DNA of 26,528 nt, taken from positions 1 to 26,528 of the IMG/VR virus record IMGVR_UViG_3300023184_000457. One strand, given 5' to 3'. The stretch comes from a virus. The notes under the pieces were generated by a model that was given only the letters and a program-made list of their open reading frames with translations, had not been told where the DNA came from and did no database searches. The stretch's first letter is position 1, and every line of letters starts with the position of its first letter. Positions 7,541 through 22,198 of the stretch are shown here, in pieces. The position numbers were made by a program, and so were the translations under genes.

Positions 7541-7865
7541 AGGTAAAATAATTCCGATCCGTGACAATGTTTTAGTTTCGGATATGGATTTTGATATGCA
7601 GAAAACTGCTGCTGGAATCTTAATTACTAGTGATAATGGAAAAGCAGAAGGTATATATCCGCGATGGGGGAAGGTGTGGGCTGTTGGACCCGAGCAAACG
7701 GATGTCACAGTCGGTGAATGGATTTTAATAGAGCACGGTCGATGGACCAGGACTATTGAATTTGAATTAGACAACGAAAATATTGTTGAATTACGCAGAG
7801 TTGATACGAAGGCTATACTAGCATCTGCTGATGAAAAACCGCAAGATTGGATGCGTAGGGCATAG
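7530..7865 (+). CDS. GroES-like co-chaperonin (gp31-like)
   Basis: The 111-residue protein has the GroES beta-barrel pattern. A first strand KGKIIPIRDNVLVSDMDF matches IRPLHDRV. A mobile-loop region QKTAAGILITSDNGKA matches the segment that docks on GroEL. Then come GKVWAVGP and VTVGEWILIEHGRW. GroES-type lids close the host GroEL chamber; T4 gp31 and its relatives replace host GroES so that GroEL can fold the large capsid protein. The hydrophobic GILI in the loop is the GroEL-binding tripeptide position. Length is nearer gp31 (about 111) than GroES (about 97). It forms part of a wider chaperone and protease set in this window. The GroES fold is confident; specific service to the capsid protein is inferred from T4. 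Confidence 0.85.
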   Translation: MKVKGKIIPIRDNVLVSDMDFDMQKTAAGILITSDNGKAEGIYPRWGKVWAVGPEQTDVTVGEWILIEHGRWTRTIEFELDNENIVELRRVDTKAILASADEKPQDWMRRA

Positions 7866-7878
7866 AAGTATCTTAAAA

Positions 7879-8343
7879 ATGATATTCAATAAAGTTAAAG
7901 AACTAAAAAAAGAAGGGTTAAAAATTGGTATTACATTTTCAACCTTTGATCTTTTTCATGCTGGACATGTTGCCATGCTTTCAGAAGCCAAAAATCATTG
8001 TGATTACCTAATTGCAGCGTTACAAACAGATCCAACTATTGATCGTCCTGATACGAAAAATCCTCCTATCCAAAGCATTGTAGAACGTCAAATTCAACTA
8101 AGTACAAATCGTAATGTGGACGAAGTAGTTGTATATCAAACAGAAAAAGACCTCAACGATCTCTTGCTTATTTTGCCTGTTGATGTTAGAATATTAGGTA
8201 TAGAGTATGCAGACAAGGACTTTACAGGTAAAGATATTTGTCAAAAGCGTGGAATTGAAATCATCTATAACGGACGAGATCATTCCTTTAGTAGTAGCAG
8301 CCTACGCAAGCGTGTAGCAGAAGCAGAAGGAAAAAAGAAATGA
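7879..8343 (+). CDS. Cytidylyltransferase-family nucleotidyltransferase
   Basis: The 154-residue protein has the HxGH nucleotidyltransferase signature: GITFSTFDLFHAGH at residues 17-30 binds the nucleotide triphosphate, and SSSSLRKR near the C-terminus matches the closing S-T/S-x-x-R helix. Size and order fit glycerol-3-phosphate or ethanolamine-phosphate cytidylyltransferases and the HldE C-terminal domain, which make CDP- or ADP-activated lipid or sugar precursors. I start at ATG 7879, 13 bases after the co-chaperonin stop, because an in-frame ATG at 7831 would lie inside that gene. The stop overlaps the next ATG as ATGA. A role in modifying envelope or glycan precursors is possible; the substrate is not readable. 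Confidence 0.85.
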   Translation: MIFNKVKELKKEGLKIGITFSTFDLFHAGHVAMLSEAKNHCDYLIAALQTDPTIDRPDTKNPPIQSIVERQIQLSTNRNVDEVVVYQTEKDLNDLLLILPVDVRILGIEYADKDFTGKDICQKRGIEIIYNGRDHSFSSSSLRKRVAEAEGKKK

Positions 8344-8540: not shown

Positions 8541-8824
8541 ACTGGTTACGAAAGAAAATGCACAATTTTATATTCCCGCAGGATGAGCCACAACGAGCAA
8601 ATAAGTTGTCGAGAGGAAGTGACGTGGTTGCCTCCGGAGAAACACTCAGCACAGAACCTATAAGGTTAAGTATCTATCGTGCTAACGGTGGAATGATTGT
8701 TGAGACTCGTACATATGATCGTCAGAAGGATCGTAGTCAAAATCAACTACACATTGTCAGTCATGATGAAGACCTCGGACACAGTTTGGCAAAGATTATC
8801 ACCATGGAGTCGCTGCGTGGATAA
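8537..8824 (+). CDS. Conserved phage protein, 95 residues
   Basis: A basic, variable N-terminal stretch (MNWLRKKMHNFIFPQ) is followed by a conserved-looking beta domain with PIRLSIYRANGGMIVETRTYD, then LHIVSHDEDLGHSLAKIITMESL. The strand-strand-helix layout resembles a short uncharacterised protein found in T4-like marine phages, by memory. It overlaps the previous gene by ATGA, and its TAA overlaps the ATG of the next gene (TAATG). This keeps the run from 7530 to 10777 as one tightly coupled operon. No function is assigned. Confidence 0.65.
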   Translation: MNWLRKKMHNFIFPQDEPQRANKLSRGSDVVASGETLSTEPIRLSIYRANGGMIVETRTYDRQKDRSQNQLHIVSHDEDLGHSLAKIITMESLRG

Positions 8825-9315
8825 TGTTAGATCAACAAGATATCAAAGAAAAATTAATTAATTGGATAATTAATTTTTTAGAAGTTCCTAATCAACAGTT
8901 AAACAATTGGGCTCCGTGCCCTTTTGCAAGACAGGCAAGGGTTAAAGATAATATTTCCTACAAGTTTTGTACCGTAGCAGAATTTGCAGATGTACTAAGA
9001 GAAAGTACATATATATTAGAACAAAAGGATGTAGTGGTCATTTGTTTTGATCACACTTACATAGACCCGTTAACTTTACAAAAGTGGGTAGAAGACAAAA
9101 ATAAAATGTTAATACCTGCCGGTTATGTCATTCTTGAAGATCACCCCGATGCCTTAGAATTTATCAACGGTGTAAGAATGAATTTTGGACATTGCGGATT
9201 ATTGTTAATGCAAAAATTAGACAAACTAAATATTGCGTCTGAACAACTACGCAATAAAGGTTATTACGATGTTTGGTCTACAGATGAATTAGATTCAGTA
9301 GTATCGTGGCGTTAA
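8824..9315 (+). CDS. Unknown protein with WxPCPFAR motif, first of coupled trio
   Basis: The 163-residue protein has a conserved-looking N-terminal NNWAPCPFARQAR segment (28-39). A central beta-alpha unit with DVVVICFDHTYIDP follows, then a GYVILEDHPDALEFINGV segment and an ending LGLLLMQ-like strand with the helix DKLNIASEQLRNKGYYDVW. The C-P-F-A-R-x-A motif recalls bacterial proteins with a buried functional Cys, such as DUF1415-type proteins, but I cannot place it in a named family. It overlaps the next gene by 10 bases and is followed by a GNAT/ATE-like transferase and an amidinotransferase-like enzyme, so it probably works in the same small pathway. Whether the Cys is catalytic, metal-binding or structural cannot be told. 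Confidence 0.6.
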   Translation: MLDQQDIKEKLINWIINFLEVPNQQLNNWAPCPFARQARVKDNISYKFCTVAEFADVLRESTYILEQKDVVVICFDHTYIDPLTLQKWVEDKNKMLIPAGYVILEDHPDALEFINGVRMNFGHCGLLLMQKLDKLNIASEQLRNKGYYDVWSTDELDSVVSWR

Positions 9316-9737
9316 AATTTTGTAGAATAGATTTAAGTAAAACAAATTATGTCCAATTAGATAATTGGATTTATATCTCTGCGCCCAATATAGATCAACT
9401 TAACTATATCTATAAACAATATTGCAGTTATAAAAATTTTGAAAGTGTGATGCCGCTATTTGATAATCATTATCAAAATCCTATCGTAGAAATCATCGGC
9501 TATCAACATAATAACAATATTGTTGCATTCAGTTTAACAACTATATTAGATCAATTCAATTGCGAAGGTACACAATTTGCTTGGGATTATAAAAATCCAG
9601 AATTAAAATTAGGTATTGAAAGTTTAAAAAATGAATGTGCAATTTATAAATCAAGAGGGTTCAAGTATTACTATCTAGGTACAGCAGACAAATACAAAGA
9701 ACAAATAGACGGTTATGAAGTGTTAGGAACATTATAA
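9306..9737 (+). CDS. GNAT/arginyltransferase (ATE)-like protein
   Basis: The 143-residue protein resembles the GNAT-type C-terminal half of arginyl-tRNA-protein transferases and FemX-like aminoacyl transferases. It has a strand IIGYQHNNNIVAFSLT, then FAWDYKNPELKLGIESLKNE, and RGFKYYYLGTADKYKEQ-DGYEVLG. In ATE the equivalent segment is a Y/W-D-(Y/P), L-x-LG, S-x-x-E, then G-x-x-YYYLG pattern. Such folds pass an amino acid from aminoacyl-tRNA, or an acyl group, to an amine. The start is GTG 9306; no nearer ATG exists before residue 49. The zinc-binding N-terminal domain of true ATE is absent. Sandwiched between an unknown protein and a pentein-fold enzyme with overlapping codons, it is probably part of a shared pathway. 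Fold call is moderate; donor and acceptor are unknown. Confidence 0.45.
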   Translation: MALKFCRIDLSKTNYVQLDNWIYISAPNIDQLNYIYKQYCSYKNFESVMPLFDNHYQNPIVEIIGYQHNNNIVAFSLTTILDQFNCEGTQFAWDYKNPELKLGIESLKNECAIYKSRGFKYYYLGTADKYKEQIDGYEVLGTL

Positions 9738-10777
9738 TGTATTCAGTACATCAACATTGGGATCCGTTAAAAGTTTGTATAGTGGGTAAATCTTATTCCC
9801 CTGAGTTTTATTCTTTTGTTAAAAATTCAAATGTAAGACAAGTGCTGCAACAAATAGCACAAGAGACTGAAGAAGATTATCAAAAATTAGTTAATCTATT
9901 AGAAAGTTTTGGTGTAAAAGTACTAAGGCCTACACTTACAAATAATTATTTAGATTACATAGATATCACTACACAACGTATTCGGCAGCCGCCGATGACT
10001 CCTAGAGATTATAGTATCATGCTAGGAAATGATTTTTATTGGAAAGTTAATTTGTTCCAACCTCCAGAATTTGATAATGTTATTAATGATATTAAAAATG
10101 CAGGTAATAGAATTATTACTACTGGTATACCTGAGATGACTAATTTTAATTCAGCAATGACACTTAGAATAGGCAAGGATTTATATGTTGGCACGTGGCC
10201 AGGACATACGCCAGACAGAAAAGAGTATGAACGAAAACAATTTGCAGATTATCTCATCGATTATAGAATTACAACAGTAGATTCAAACGGGCATTCGGAT
10301 GGGGTATTGTGTGCTGTTAAACCGGGATTACTAGTTTCCTTGAATAATATATCAAATTATAAAAAAACATTTCCAGGTTGGGAAGTAATATTCTTGCCGG
10401 GACAAAGTTGGGACAAGGTAAAATCTTTTATGGAAAGCAAAAAAAAACATGGAGGTAAATGGTGGGTTCCTGGGGAGGAACTTAATGACGACTTTACCAA
10501 TTATGTGAATAAATGGTTAGACCATTGGGTTGGATTTGTTGAAGAAACTGTGTTCGATGTGAATATGTTAGTCATTGATGAGAAAAATGTAATCTGCAAT
10601 AATTACAATGAGAAAGTATTTGAAGCATTTAATCGGCATGGAATTACTCCACACATTTTAAATTTTAGACATAGATATTTTTGGGACGGGGGATTGCATT
10701 GTATTACTAGCGATGTACATCGTGTTGGAGAACAAAAGGACTATTTTCCAGAAAGATCACTATTGCATAAACTTTAA
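9737..10777 (+). CDS. Amidinotransferase-like (pentein superfamily) enzyme
   Basis: The 346-residue protein fits the guanidino-group modifying (pentein) enzymes such as glycine amidinotransferase, arginine deiminase and DDAH, which form a thiouronium intermediate on a Cys. It opens with WDPLKVCIVGKSYSPEFY, has the PRDYSIMLGND segment (89-99), the His motif GHSDG (His186, Asp188) and the nucleophile motif GGLHCITSDVHR (Cys322) near the C-terminus. Order and spacing match amidinotransferases in length and are longer than DDAH. Substrates in this family are arginine, ornithine, glycine or peptidyl arginine. It starts on the overlapping TAATG of the GNAT-like gene and ends the coupled run. Moving or removing an arginine-derived amidino group in concert with the transferase is inferred. 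The family is confident; the reaction (transfer, deimination or hydrolysis) is not. Confidence 0.8.
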   Translation: MYSVHQHWDPLKVCIVGKSYSPEFYSFVKNSNVRQVLQQIAQETEEDYQKLVNLLESFGVKVLRPTLTNNYLDYIDITTQRIRQPPMTPRDYSIMLGNDFYWKVNLFQPPEFDNVINDIKNAGNRIITTGIPEMTNFNSAMTLRIGKDLYVGTWPGHTPDRKEYERKQFADYLIDYRITTVDSNGHSDGVLCAVKPGLLVSLNNISNYKKTFPGWEVIFLPGQSWDKVKSFMESKKKHGGKWWVPGEELNDDFTNYVNKWLDHWVGFVEETVFDVNMLVIDEKNVICNNYNEKVFEAFNRHGITPHILNFRHRYFWDGGLHCITSDVHRVGEQKDYFPERSLLHKL

Positions 10778-18594: not shown

Positions 18595-19422
18595 ATGGAC
18601 CATTACACAACTTTAGGCGTAGATCGAAACGCAAGCCCCGACGATATCAAACGGGCATATCGTAAATTGGCCAGTCAGCATCATCCAGATAAAGGTGGCG
18701 ACAAGGCTAAATTCCAAGATATTCAGGTTGCTTATGATACATTGAGCGACCCGGATAAACGATCCCAATACGATAATCCAATGCCCCAAGGCTTCCGACA
18801 GCACGGAGGAGTGCCGCCCGGCTTTGAAGACGTATTTGCTCAGATGTTTGGAGGCAATAGTCCATTTGGTGATATGTTTGGTGGACGTAGGCCACAACCT
18901 GTTAGGAACAGAACCTTAAATTTACAAACACAAATATTGTTAGAAGAAGCATTTCACGGTAAAGATCTATTAGCAACAATTCAATTGCCGTCGGGTAGAG
19001 AACAAGTTCTACAGGTAAAAATTCCTCCAGGAGTTAGTGATGGTACTACATTGCGACTAGCAAGTATGGGTGATGATAGCATAGGAAATATGCCAAGAGG
19101 GGATATACATTTAGGAGTTCACATACTACCTCATAATATATATCAACGACAAGGCGATGACCTTGTTAGAAATTTATCTATTAACTGTCTAGATGCAATA
19201 GTAGGTAAAACTTTACAGTTTGATACTATAGATAATAAAACATTAGAAATTGAAATTGCGCCTGGTACACAACACGGGCAAACACTTGCCGTACAAGGAT
19301 ACGGAATGCCTAACATGTCTAATTTTTATATGAGAGGAAGATTGCTATTAAATATTAATATCACTGTACCAACTAATTTAACAGATGAACACAAATTACT
19401 TATAAAACAAATATTATGTTAA
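18595..19422 (+). CDS. DnaJ/CbpA-like J-domain co-chaperone
   Basis: The 275-residue protein has a J-domain at 1-60: YTTLGVDRNASPDDIKRAYR, the HPD motif (30-32) and DPDKRSQYD. A Gly/Phe-rich linker (PMPQGF, GGNSPFGDMFGG) follows, then a DnaJ C-terminal substrate-binding domain from about 98 with LNLQTQILLEEAFHGK and VKIPPGVSDGTTLRL. The Cys-rich zinc finger of DnaJ is absent, as in CbpA/DjlA-type J-proteins. J-proteins hand clients to DnaK and stimulate its ATPase; no DnaK is visible here, so it probably uses the host's. It heads an operon with deformylase and ClpA and overlaps the next ATG by 7 bases. The leader is about 14 bases with no ribosome site. Confidence 0.93.
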   Translation: MDHYTTLGVDRNASPDDIKRAYRKLASQHHPDKGGDKAKFQDIQVAYDTLSDPDKRSQYDNPMPQGFRQHGGVPPGFEDVFAQMFGGNSPFGDMFGGRRPQPVRNRTLNLQTQILLEEAFHGKDLLATIQLPSGREQVLQVKIPPGVSDGTTLRLASMGDDSIGNMPRGDIHLGVHILPHNIYQRQGDDLVRNLSINCLDAIVGKTLQFDTIDNKTLEIEIAPGTQHGQTLAVQGYGMPNMSNFYMRGRLLLNINITVPTNLTDEHKLLIKQILC

Positions 19423-19919
19423 AACTTGTAAAATTTCCAGACCCCATACTTAGGCAACGTATGCCTGATTTTGACTTCACTAATCCTGTAATAGATCCAG
19501 TAGAACTTGAAAAAGATATGATTAACATTATGCTAGCCGCTGACGGTATTGGTCTTGCTGCTAATCAAGTTGGAATCAATACTCGTATGTTTGTTATGGG
19601 GCATAGAGATAATCCAGAAGCCGCACAAGCATTTTTTAATCCTAAAATTATAGAAAATACAACAGAAAGTATTAATCTAGAGGAAGGATGTTTGAGTTTT
19701 CCTGGAATTTATGTTAAAATTAAACGTCCTACAGCAATTAAAGCACGTTGGCAGAATAGTCAAGGTGAAGTTGAAGAAGGAGAATTTGATGGATATAACT
19801 GTAAGTGTTTCTTACACGAATACGATCATTTAGAGGGAATTACATTCCAAGATAGAGTCAGCAGCCTTAAATGGGCTATGGCAGTTAAAAAAACTAAAGT
19901 AAAGAGAAAATACAAATAA
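19416..19919 (+). CDS. def: Peptide deformylase
   Basis: The 167-residue protein carries all three deformylase motifs: GIGLAANQ (44-51), EGCLS (90-94, metal ligand Cys92) and HEYDH (134-138, ligands His134 and His138, catalytic Glu135). Deformylases remove the formyl group from the start Met of new proteins, and phage versions are common in marine T4-like phages. A Tyr stands in the fourth position where H-E-(x)-D-H usually has Met/Leu, which is within the family range. A basic C-terminus (KKTKVKRKYK) might contact the ribosome, as the C-terminal helix of E. coli PDF does. Its ATG lies within dnaJ, and its TAA overlaps the clpA ATG (TAATG). Confidence 0.95.
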   Translation: MLKLVKFPDPILRQRMPDFDFTNPVIDPVELEKDMINIMLAADGIGLAANQVGINTRMFVMGHRDNPEAAQAFFNPKIIENTTESINLEEGCLSFPGIYVKIKRPTAIKARWQNSQGEVEEGEFDGYNCKCFLHEYDHLEGITFQDRVSSLKWAMAVKKTKVKRKYK

Positions 19920-22198
19920 TGCTACAACCAAATAAAGATCTAGAAGAAATTTTTGAATCAGCAGTAAGATTCGCTAATGAACATAATCATGAATTCATTA
20001 CATTAGAACATTTTCTTTATAGTATGGTTAAAAATGAACCGTTTGCTAAATTATTAACTAATTTTGGTACAGATGTTCCAACACTCATTGGTGATCTTGA
20101 AAAATATATCACAGATGAACTAGGCGGTATTGTTAATACAAGTGTTGATAGACCTAAAAAAACACAGGCTGTTGAAAGAATACTTAATCGTGCATTTTCA
20201 CAAACACTATTTGCCGGTAGACAAATAATCGAGCCAGTTGATTGCTTTATTAGTATGTTTGCAGAAAAAAAGAGTTATGCAAACTACTTTATTCGCAAAG
20301 CAAATATTGATAAAGACAAATTTATAAATTACATACAAAAAGAATATTCAAAAGAAGAAGAAGTTGAAGAAGGTACTACCACTAATGTTAATCCTCAGAT
20401 TGAGCGTATGCTTAATCAATTCTGTATTAATTTAAGTGCTCGTGCAAAATCTAAAAAGATTGATCCTGTTATTGGTCGTGAAAAAGAAATTGAAGAACTA
20501 CAACTAGTATTGGCACGTAGAAATAAAGCCAATGTTATGTTAATTGGTGACCCAGGTGTTGGTAAAACTGCTATTGCAGAAGGATTAGCACGTAAAATTT
20601 ACGAAGGTAATGTTCCTAAGTTTATTCAAGATAATACTGTTTATAGTTTAGATATTAGTGCATTACTGGCAGGGAGCAAATATCGTGGAGACTTTGAAGA
20701 ACGCTTAAAGATGGTTATAGGTGCTCTTGAAAAGAAAAAGAATTGTATCCTGTTCATTGACGAAGCACATATGATGAATGGTGCTGGTGCTAATAGTGGT
20801 GGTAGTAATGATATGGCTAATATGCTTAAACCTGCATTGAGTAAAGGTACAATTAAAGTTGTTGCCAGTACTACATGGGAAGAATATCGCAAACACTTTG
20901 AAAAAGATCGTGCATTGATGCGCCGGTTCCAACGTGTTACTGTCGATGAACCGGATGAATCTACTACCATTAAAATCCTTAAAGGTCTGCGTAAGTATTA
21001 CGAAAAACATCACGGTGTTAAGATCACTAATCAAGCACTAACTGATGCAGTAACATATTCAGTTAAGTATATGACTGATAAAAAATTACCTGATAAAGCA
21101 ATTGATCTTATTGATTGTGCTAGTGCTCGTTTTAAAGTTAAAGACGAAGAGAATGGAGTTGTTGATCATGATGAAATATTGTTTGAAGTAGCAAAGATTG
21201 CCAATCTACCATTAGAGCAAATTAACTCAAAAGAAGGTTCAAGTCTTGCAGGACTTGAAAAAGGCATGAGAAATAAAGTATTTGGACAAGAGAAAGCCAT
21301 TGAAACATTGTTAGATAAAATCTTTATTGCACAAGCAGGCCTTAAAGCGTTTAATAAACCAGTAGGTAGTTTCTTATTTGTTGGCCCAACAGGTGTTGGT
21401 AAGACTGAAGTTGCAAAACAACTTGCATCAAATATGGGAATCAAAATGATTCGCTTTGATATGAGTGAATTTCAAGAGAAACATAGTGTAGCCAAGTTTA
21501 TTGGTGCACCTCCCGGATATGTAGGGTTTGAAGATAATGCTGGACAATTGATTACCGGTCTTCAAGAACATCCCAATTGTGTATTATTGTTAGATGAAGT
21601 AGAAAAAGCGCATCCGGATGTACTTACAGTTCTATTACAATTGATGGATAATGGTTTTATCACTGGCAGCAATGGTAAGAAAGCGGATGGTCGCAATTCT
21701 ATTATCATTATGACCAGTAATTTAGGTGCTGCTGATGCTGAAAAGAATGGCGTTGGATTTGGTAGTTTAGAGCGTGACGGTGATCCCAAGGATGCTGTTA
21801 ATAAGTTCTTTGCACCTGAATTCCGTAATCGGTTAGATGGCATCATTAAGTTTGGTAAGTTAGATCAAACAAGTATGATTAAAGTTGTTAAGAAGTTTAT
21901 TGATGACCTAAATGCATTGGTTAAAGATAAAAACATACATGTAAAACCTAATGCTGAGGCTGTTGAGTATTTAATTAAGAAGGGGTTTGATAGTAAAATG
22001 GGTGCTCGTCCATTACAACGTACCATTGATGACATGATTAAAAAGCCACTTAGCAAAGAAATACTATTTGGTAAGTTAACTAATGGCGGAGTTGTTGAAG
22101 TATCTGTTGAAGATGGTAAACTTAAACTTAATATTATCGAAGTATTACCCGTAGTTAAGGTAGAAAAAAATGCAGATACAGAAACTGAACTCCAGTAA
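19919..22198 (+). CDS. clpA: ClpA-like AAA+ unfoldase (Clp protease ATPase subunit)
   Basis: The 759-residue protein has the full ClpA plan: an N-domain (1-140) with HEFITLEHFLYSM, AAA1 with Walker A GDPGVGKT (210-217) and Walker B ILFIDEAH (277-284), and AAA2 with Walker A GPTGVGKT (489-496) and Walker B VLLLDEVEKA (555-564). Pore-loop KYRGDFE is at 254-260, GYVGFE at 533-538, and ARPLQRTI near the end. No ClpB-type middle coiled coil is present, and GVGFGSL around 611-617 offers a hydrophobic VGF tripeptide where ClpA/ClpX carry the IGF/L loop that docks on ClpP. It unfolds proteins into ClpP, probably the phage ClpP at 400-984. The length equals E. coli ClpA (758). The ClpA call is very secure; docking to the phage ClpP is inferred. 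Confidence 0.96.
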   Translation: MLQPNKDLEEIFESAVRFANEHNHEFITLEHFLYSMVKNEPFAKLLTNFGTDVPTLIGDLEKYITDELGGIVNTSVDRPKKTQAVERILNRAFSQTLFAGRQIIEPVDCFISMFAEKKSYANYFIRKANIDKDKFINYIQKEYSKEEEVEEGTTTNVNPQIERMLNQFCINLSARAKSKKIDPVIGREKEIEELQLVLARRNKANVMLIGDPGVGKTAIAEGLARKIYEGNVPKFIQDNTVYSLDISALLAGSKYRGDFEERLKMVIGALEKKKNCILFIDEAHMMNGAGANSGGSNDMANMLKPALSKGTIKVVASTTWEEYRKHFEKDRALMRRFQRVTVDEPDESTTIKILKGLRKYYEKHHGVKITNQALTDAVTYSVKYMTDKKLPDKAIDLIDCASARFKVKDEENGVVDHDEILFEVAKIANLPLEQINSKEGSSLAGLEKGMRNKVFGQEKAIETLLDKIFIAQAGLKAFNKPVGSFLFVGPTGVGKTEVAKQLASNMGIKMIRFDMSEFQEKHSVAKFIGAPPGYVGFEDNAGQLITGLQEHPNCVLLLDEVEKAHPDVLTVLLQLMDNGFITGSNGKKADGRNSIIIMTSNLGAADAEKNGVGFGSLERDGDPKDAVNKFFAPEFRNRLDGIIKFGKLDQTSMIKVVKKFIDDLNALVKDKNIHVKPNAEAVEYLIKKGFDSKMGARPLQRTIDDMIKKPLSKEILFGKLTNGGVVEVSVEDGKLKLNIIEVLPVVKVEKNADTETELQ

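Follow-up and report, generated by a model that had tools for sequence, protein, structure and literature searches.

AglA is a heme-thiolate guanidine N-hydroxylase whose four-stranded sheet is flanked by three helices on one side and by two on the opposite side, and whose heme iron is bound by Cys44 (PMC12866846). Its relative ChmN hydroxylates arginine, and the C47A variant of ChmN loses the heme (PMC10849742); in both enzymes heme is bound through an N-terminal cysteine and guanidine nitrogens are hydroxylated (PMC12866846, PMC10849742). The DUF6875 proteins ("cytochrome P422") are also reported to bind heme and to act on tryptophan (PMC13307353). In the argolaphos pathway AlpD, a YqcI/YcgG protein, is paired with the GNAT aminoacyl-tRNA ligases AlpF and AlpO (PMC8976061); AMPn-Arg is made by AglC together with ArgRS and tRNA, and AglA then hydroxylates the conjugate (PMC12866846). 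As for viruses, survey lists include "glycine amidinotransferase" as a lone viral metabolic gene.

We analyzed three overlapping genes, here named P1, P2 and P3, of a virus record. A sequence-only reading of this DNA had proposed a guanidino pathway of ATE/GNAT-like and amidinotransferase-like enzymes and knew of no described phage system with such a trio; our literature search, with most subscription papers and preprints outside its reach, likewise returned no phage paper on YqcI/YcgG proteins and no such trio.

Organization of the locus

The window, that is the whole stretch of DNA that was analyzed, is a virus record of 26.5 kb, probably a fragment, and carries T4-like genes including those for a head maturation protease, a tail fibre, a clamp loader, PhoH and an endolysin. 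The trio lies at 8824-10777 on the + strand and is composed of the following elements:

8824..9315, + strand: gene 1 (P1), 163 aa, by its predicted structure a probable heme-thiolate oxygenase of the AglA-fold / DUF6875 / DUF1415 group
9306..9315, + strand: overlap of gene 1 and gene 2, 10 bases
9306..9737, + strand: gene 2 (P2), 143 aa, GTG start, single-domain GNAT, kin to the C-terminal domain of arginyl-tRNA-protein transferase
9735..9739, + strand: TAATG stop/start junction of gene 2 and gene 3, with one base common to both
9737..10777, + strand: gene 3 (P3), 346 aa, pentein enzyme of the arginine amidinotransferase group

Both joins had been described from the letters alone and are present, as are the motifs singled out in the same way (NWAPCPFAR in P1; FAWDY, LGIESLKNE and YYYLG in P2; GHSDG and GGLHCIT in P3). 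Overlaps are typical of the loci of relatives too, four bases being the most frequent length. P2 compared with its relative at L016 gives dN 0.13 and dS 0.76, and P3 compared with that at L001 gives dN 0.26 and dS 2.9. Because dN is far below dS against these diverged relatives, and because the same order is found in dozens of phage contigs, all three are real genes under purifying selection and not chance open reading frames.

Other genes of the window include an HldE-like adenylyltransferase (7831-8343; rfaE domain II, E 2e-21) a short distance upstream of the trio, a QueD-like gene (1066-1539) that overlaps a nucleoside triphosphate pyrophosphohydrolase-like gene (together 1066-1819), and an ATP-dependent protease (Clp-type ATPase) gene that comes right after a peptide deformylase gene (19416-22198).

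P3, an amidinotransferase-type enzyme

A profile of P3 relatives searched against the PDB matches human AGAT (E 9e-24), HsvA (1e-21), SxtG (3e-19) and StrB (2e-18). The positions that correspond to the AGAT residues Cys407, His303, Asp305, Asp170 and Asp254, whose roles we take as commonly understood and whose numbering is that of the PDB chains, are the following:

10004..10009, + strand: Arg90-Asp91, with Asp91 equivalent to AGAT Asp170; Arg90 in 31/32 and Asp91 in 32/32 relatives
10148..10150, + strand: Asn138, at the position of the catalytic Asp254 of AGAT, aligned to CFDAADF of AGAT
10289..10303, + strand: GHSDG, with His186 and Asp188 (AGAT His303 and Asp305), both invariant in 32 relatives
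10688..10708, + strand: GGLHCIT, with the nucleophile Cys322 (AGAT Cys407), invariant in 32 relatives

Asn138 is placed at Asp254 by the alignment of the P3 segment NFNSAMTLRIGKDLY with the AGAT segment CFDAADFIRAGRDIF. Among the 32 relatives this position is Asn in 24 and Asp in two. The amidinotransferase-like pentein enzyme proposed from the letters is thus borne out by the AGAT profile match and by the conserved Cys, His and two Asp residues. Judged by its sequence, P3 belongs to the AGAT superfamily but is not a plain AGAT, since the Asp254 position is Asn; a housekeeping AGAT was considered and rejected because of this change and of the multiple paralogues.

A P3 relative of Synechococcus phage S-SCSM2R (L010, 213353-214246) is annotated as glycine amidinotransferase; it adjoins KdsA and is also near KdsB, a glycosyltransferase and two 2OG-Fe(II) oxygenases. 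The large records of L142 and L159 (G457, G460) have up to seven amidinotransferase-like matches each, among them a shorter P3 type of about 304-316 aa with a UDP-sugar dehydrogenase gene close by. Neighbourhoods of this kind raise the alternative of glycan or surface decoration, in which the three enzymes would attach guanidino and hydroxyl groups to a sugar made by phage or host, or trim such groups from it. The HldE-like gene of the window, the KdsA, KdsB, glycosyltransferase and 2OG oxygenase genes of S-SCSM2R and the UDP-sugar dehydrogenase of some large records are consistent with it, as is StrB, a relative of P3 in the PDB that amidinates an aminocyclitol. However, the S-SCSM2R gene is not beside P1 or P2 and most P1-P2 loci have no evident glycan genes, and we consider decoration of a sugar quite improbable.

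P2, a single-domain GNAT protein

Pfam ATE_C is matched by 25/29 P2 relatives (best E 2e-9); the P2 of the window, at 22.5 bits, falls slightly short of the cut-off of 25. The AF2 model (pLDDT 94.6) has its highest-scoring structure matches in MprF (Z 15.0), FemX (Z 14.4) and L-PGS (Z 14.4), and the Foldseek top matches include ATE1 and A-PGS. These matches agree with the earlier proposal that P2 corresponds to the GNAT half of arginyltransferases. The P2 profile gave nothing significant against PDB sequences. N-myristoyltransferase (NMT) and VipF, which use acyl-CoA, score nearly as high, so the fold alone cannot settle the donor. A further indication is given by one segment of the protein:

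9579..9623, + strand: AWDYxNPxLxLGIxS, ATE-type, in place of the CoA motif [QR]xxGx[GA]

Trp93, Tyr95 and Gly103 are invariant in 29 relatives, and the CoA motif [QR]xxGx[GA] was found in none of them. Its absence in all 29 favours an aminoacyl-tRNA as donor, to which we would give an even chance, with arginine as the favoured guess for the group moved.

P2 has no ATE_N match and is a single domain of 143 residues; without the ATE N-terminal half it would not be filed as an arginyltransferase on sequence grounds. The same fact bears on a different use of the trio, namely that P2 transfers an amino acid from aminoacyl-tRNA to a protein of the host or of the virion, or to a surface molecule, and that P1 and P3 oxidise or edit the residue, marking the target for degradation or altering the virion. 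Arginyl-tRNA-protein transferase is indeed nearest to P2 by sequence, and lipid-modifying enzymes of the MprF type are its best structural matches; but P2 lacks the N-terminal half of ATE, the AglA-type oxygenases of known function act on small molecules (PMC12866846), and the gene neighbourhood points to no target protein. Modification of a macromolecule appears unlikely to us.

P1, a candidate heme-thiolate oxygenase

The AF2 model of P1, folded from an alignment of the window protein and its relatives without the rows of named phages, has a pLDDT of 92.4. AglA was absent from the Foldseek top 50, where only weak methyltransferase- and IF3-type rows were present; the match to it came from a second structure comparison, after Foldseek, in which five AglA entries have Z 8.2-8.4 over 148-151 of the 163 residues and the next row has Z 4.7, a Z near 8 being modest. 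The order of helices and strands in the model fits the description of AglA, four-stranded sheet included. Two motifs were located:

8914..8931, + strand: PCPFAR, with Cys32 (8917-8919) as proposed axial heme ligand, aligned with the CPFA motif of DUF1415
9139..9147, + strand: Asp106-His107-Pro108, invariant in 38 relatives, aligned with the HP motif of DUF1415

Cys32, Pro33 and Ala35 are invariant in the 38 relatives, as are Trp14, Glu112, Asn120, Leu135, Tyr148 and Trp151, and only one cysteine is invariant in the family. Of the family members, 32/38 match Pfam DUF6875 (PF21780), with a best E of 9e-5, and the matched part covers the N-terminal helix plus the CPF motif; the matches of singly shown members are below the curated cut-off of 24.5 bits, and the P1 of the window has no listed match. 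Moreover, hhalign links P1 to DUF1415 (79%, E 1.6e-5, about 93 columns), and the CPFAR and HP segments are aligned between the two families; control pairs with P1 gave less than 1%. Against six YqcI/YcgG members hhalign gave 0.5%, which is not significant, and Pfam PF08892 (YqcI/YcgG) has no match in the window; for these two reasons P1 would not be filed as a YqcI/YcgG member. The P1 profile matched nothing significant among PDB sequences.

The fold match and the family links suggest that P1 probably binds heme. Alternatively, P1 could be a non-heme protein whose cysteine is a metal site or an acyl anchor, the likeness to AglA being that of a common scaffold only. Such a role would suit a single invariant cysteine and the lack of a significant direct sequence link to YqcI/YcgG, and an earlier paper suggested that the YqcI/YcgG cysteine acts as a thiocarboxylate anchor (PMC2922099). 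We nevertheless regard it as rather unlikely, considering that the AglA match far outscores every other one and extends over almost all of P1, and that the DUF6875 and DUF1415 links, which are independent, include the CPF motif. Even in a heme-binding P1 the substrate may not be guanidine, because DUF6875 enzymes are reported to act on tryptophan; by analogy with AglA, guanidine is possible, though on the doubtful side.

P1 relatives, annotated as hypothetical, are present in cyanophages, Puniceispirillum phage HMO-2011 and Roseobacter phages, and some of them adjoin 2OG-Fe(II) oxygenase genes. One relative (L011:4989-5459) keeps the cysteine and not the DHP motif. A stand-alone relative of 208 aa lies between housekeeping genes on a 710 kb Bdellovibrionia contig (L173:7917-8543); it also matches DUF6875 and is a cellular branch of the P1 family.

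Conservation of the three genes

IMG/VR was scanned with the P2 alignment (478 confirmed stretches) and with the P3 alignment (at least 543), and the best 80 loci were kept in each case; the non-redundant set is composed of 58 P2 genes differing by more than 10%. P1 is directly upstream of P2 on the same strand in 49 of these 58 loci, with a four-base overlap in 27 of the 49; one of the remaining loci is cut by the contig end and eight have another arrangement, in some cases P1-P3-P2. P3 is directly downstream of P2 in 24/58 loci, or, among the 51 loci with room for it, directly after P2 in 23. In records of more than 150 kb that have P1-P2 and no nearby P3, P3 is encoded elsewhere in 5/5. Fifteen large (>150 kb) records have P1 in 15/15, P3 in 15/15 and P2 in 13/15, counts that are not frequencies among phages at large since these records were picked for holding P1-P2 or P3. 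The P3 family reaches seven copies per record.

The linkage of the trio is thus well supported. The sequence-only reading had made itself dependent on a GNAT-like P2 and on the three genes being found together elsewhere: P2 is GNAT-like in its predicted structure, and the three-gene order recurs in many phage contigs. Linkage could also mean that the three genes are lineage-core neighbours with no common pathway. In fact, many contigs have P1-P2 inside a recurring gene block, cyanophages and the Bdellovibrionia contig carry P1 with no P2, and as many as seven P3 paralogues are found in one record; on the other hand, the set stays the same in overlapping genes, in order variants such as P1-P3-P2 and in dispersed loci, and mere neighbourhood seems to us a poor explanation of it, as improbable as the decoration of a sugar.

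In most loci the neighbours of P1-P2 are structural and recombination-type genes, and no electron-donor gene was recognised adjoining the trio. A DUF6614 gene of about 110 aa is within three genes of P2 in 45/58 non-redundant loci (for example L070:8438-8773 and L105:7148-7477) and is likely a fourth member of the module; it was not found near the trio in the window. At L001:4603-5271 (- strand) a longer, divergent P2-like protein of 222 aa is encoded between P1 and P3. A contig binned as Bacteroidetes (L171:1-6344) has P1-P2-P3 with several 2OG-Fe(II) oxygenase-like genes after it and looks like phage DNA inside a bacterial MAG. A UvdE-type UV endonuclease gene is near P3 in a large phage record (L099:7540-8571). 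One P2 pattern searched in GTDB genomes gave 14 matches and no relatives, a search that leaves room for distant cellular relatives, and tblastn of P2 against named phages gave no relatives.

Proposed pathway

The folds of the three enzymes are well supported; for their substrates, the order of steps, the product and its purpose we infer the following scheme. P2 would join an aminoacyl group, taken from aminoacyl-tRNA and with arginine favoured, to an amine acceptor. P1, as a small heme-thiolate oxygenase, would hydroxylate the product of P2, a guanidine nitrogen being the likeliest position as in AglA. P3, as an amidinotransferase-type Cys enzyme, would supply, move or remove a guanidino or N-hydroxyguanidino group, with the outcome that a small arginine- or guanidino-derived molecule would form during infection.

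P1 and P2 reproduce by fold the pairing of the argolaphos pathway and P3 is nearest to arginine-using amidinotransferases; for these reasons we tentatively read the trio as one enzymatic tailoring module for making or oxidising an arginine or guanidino compound, at somewhat less than even likelihood, and put a small molecule as its product only just short of even. The set is reminiscent of the enzymes with which bacteria make N-hydroxylated arginine antibiotics. The guanidino/arginine theme of the sequence-only reading fits, but that reading missed the oxidation step and left gene 1 undefined; oxidation belongs in the model because the predicted fold that holds the CPFAR cysteine of P1 is matched by AglA. 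A stronger version, in which hundreds of T4-like phages have their own pathway to an N-hydroxyguanidine compound during infection, with a transferase of the arginyl-tRNA type, a very small heme-thiolate guanidine N-oxygenase and a modified amidinotransferase as its parts, and in which the Asn of P3 fits a neutral N-hydroxyguanidine made by P1, is decidedly speculative and about as unlikely as macromolecule modification. A role in 7-deazaguanine DNA modification, suggested by the QueD-like gene, was set aside: that gene is 7 kb away and has no family link to the trio.

If the tailoring module is real, phages would be carrying natural-product-like chemistry, heme N-oxygenation and tRNA-dependent transfer of aminoacyl groups, in a multi-gene module conserved across hundreds of environmental contigs. 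Hypothetical proteins of cyanophages, HMO-2011 and Roseobacter phages would then have a function that can be tested, the AglA fold, solved only recently, would have a candidate branch in phages, and the question would arise which arginine- or guanidino-derived compound a phage needs.

Comparison with known systems

Each of the three enzyme types is known or near to known; for their assembly as a conserved phage module the literature searched gave no description. The predicted fold of P1 is like that of the AglA / YqcI-YcgG guanidine N-hydroxylases of the argolaphos, guanitoxin, chalkophomycin and D-cycloserine pathways, with which it shares the invariant N-terminal cysteine before a helix, the four-stranded sheet and the same order of elements, whereas it differs in length (163 aa versus about 230-270), in having no significant direct sequence match and in being phage-encoded. 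P1 is similar to DUF6875 over the N-terminal helix and the CPF motif and to DUF1415 over about 93 columns, but the chemistry reported for DUF6875 is on tryptophan and single P1 proteins score below the Pfam curated cut-offs. P2 resembles ATE1/Bpt and MprF/FemX in its GNAT fold, in the ATE_C motif and in having no CoA-binding motif; ATE, MprF and Fem have two GNAT domains, while P2 has one and is without the ATE N-terminal domain. P3 is related by profile to the penteins AGAT, StrB, SxtG and HsvA, and the equivalents of Cys407, His303, Asp305 and Asp170 are invariant, but the equivalent of Asp254 is Asn in most phage members and there are several P3 paralogues per phage. The argolaphos pathway also pairs an AglA-type enzyme with a GNAT aminoacyl-tRNA transferase, as P1 and P2 are paired here.
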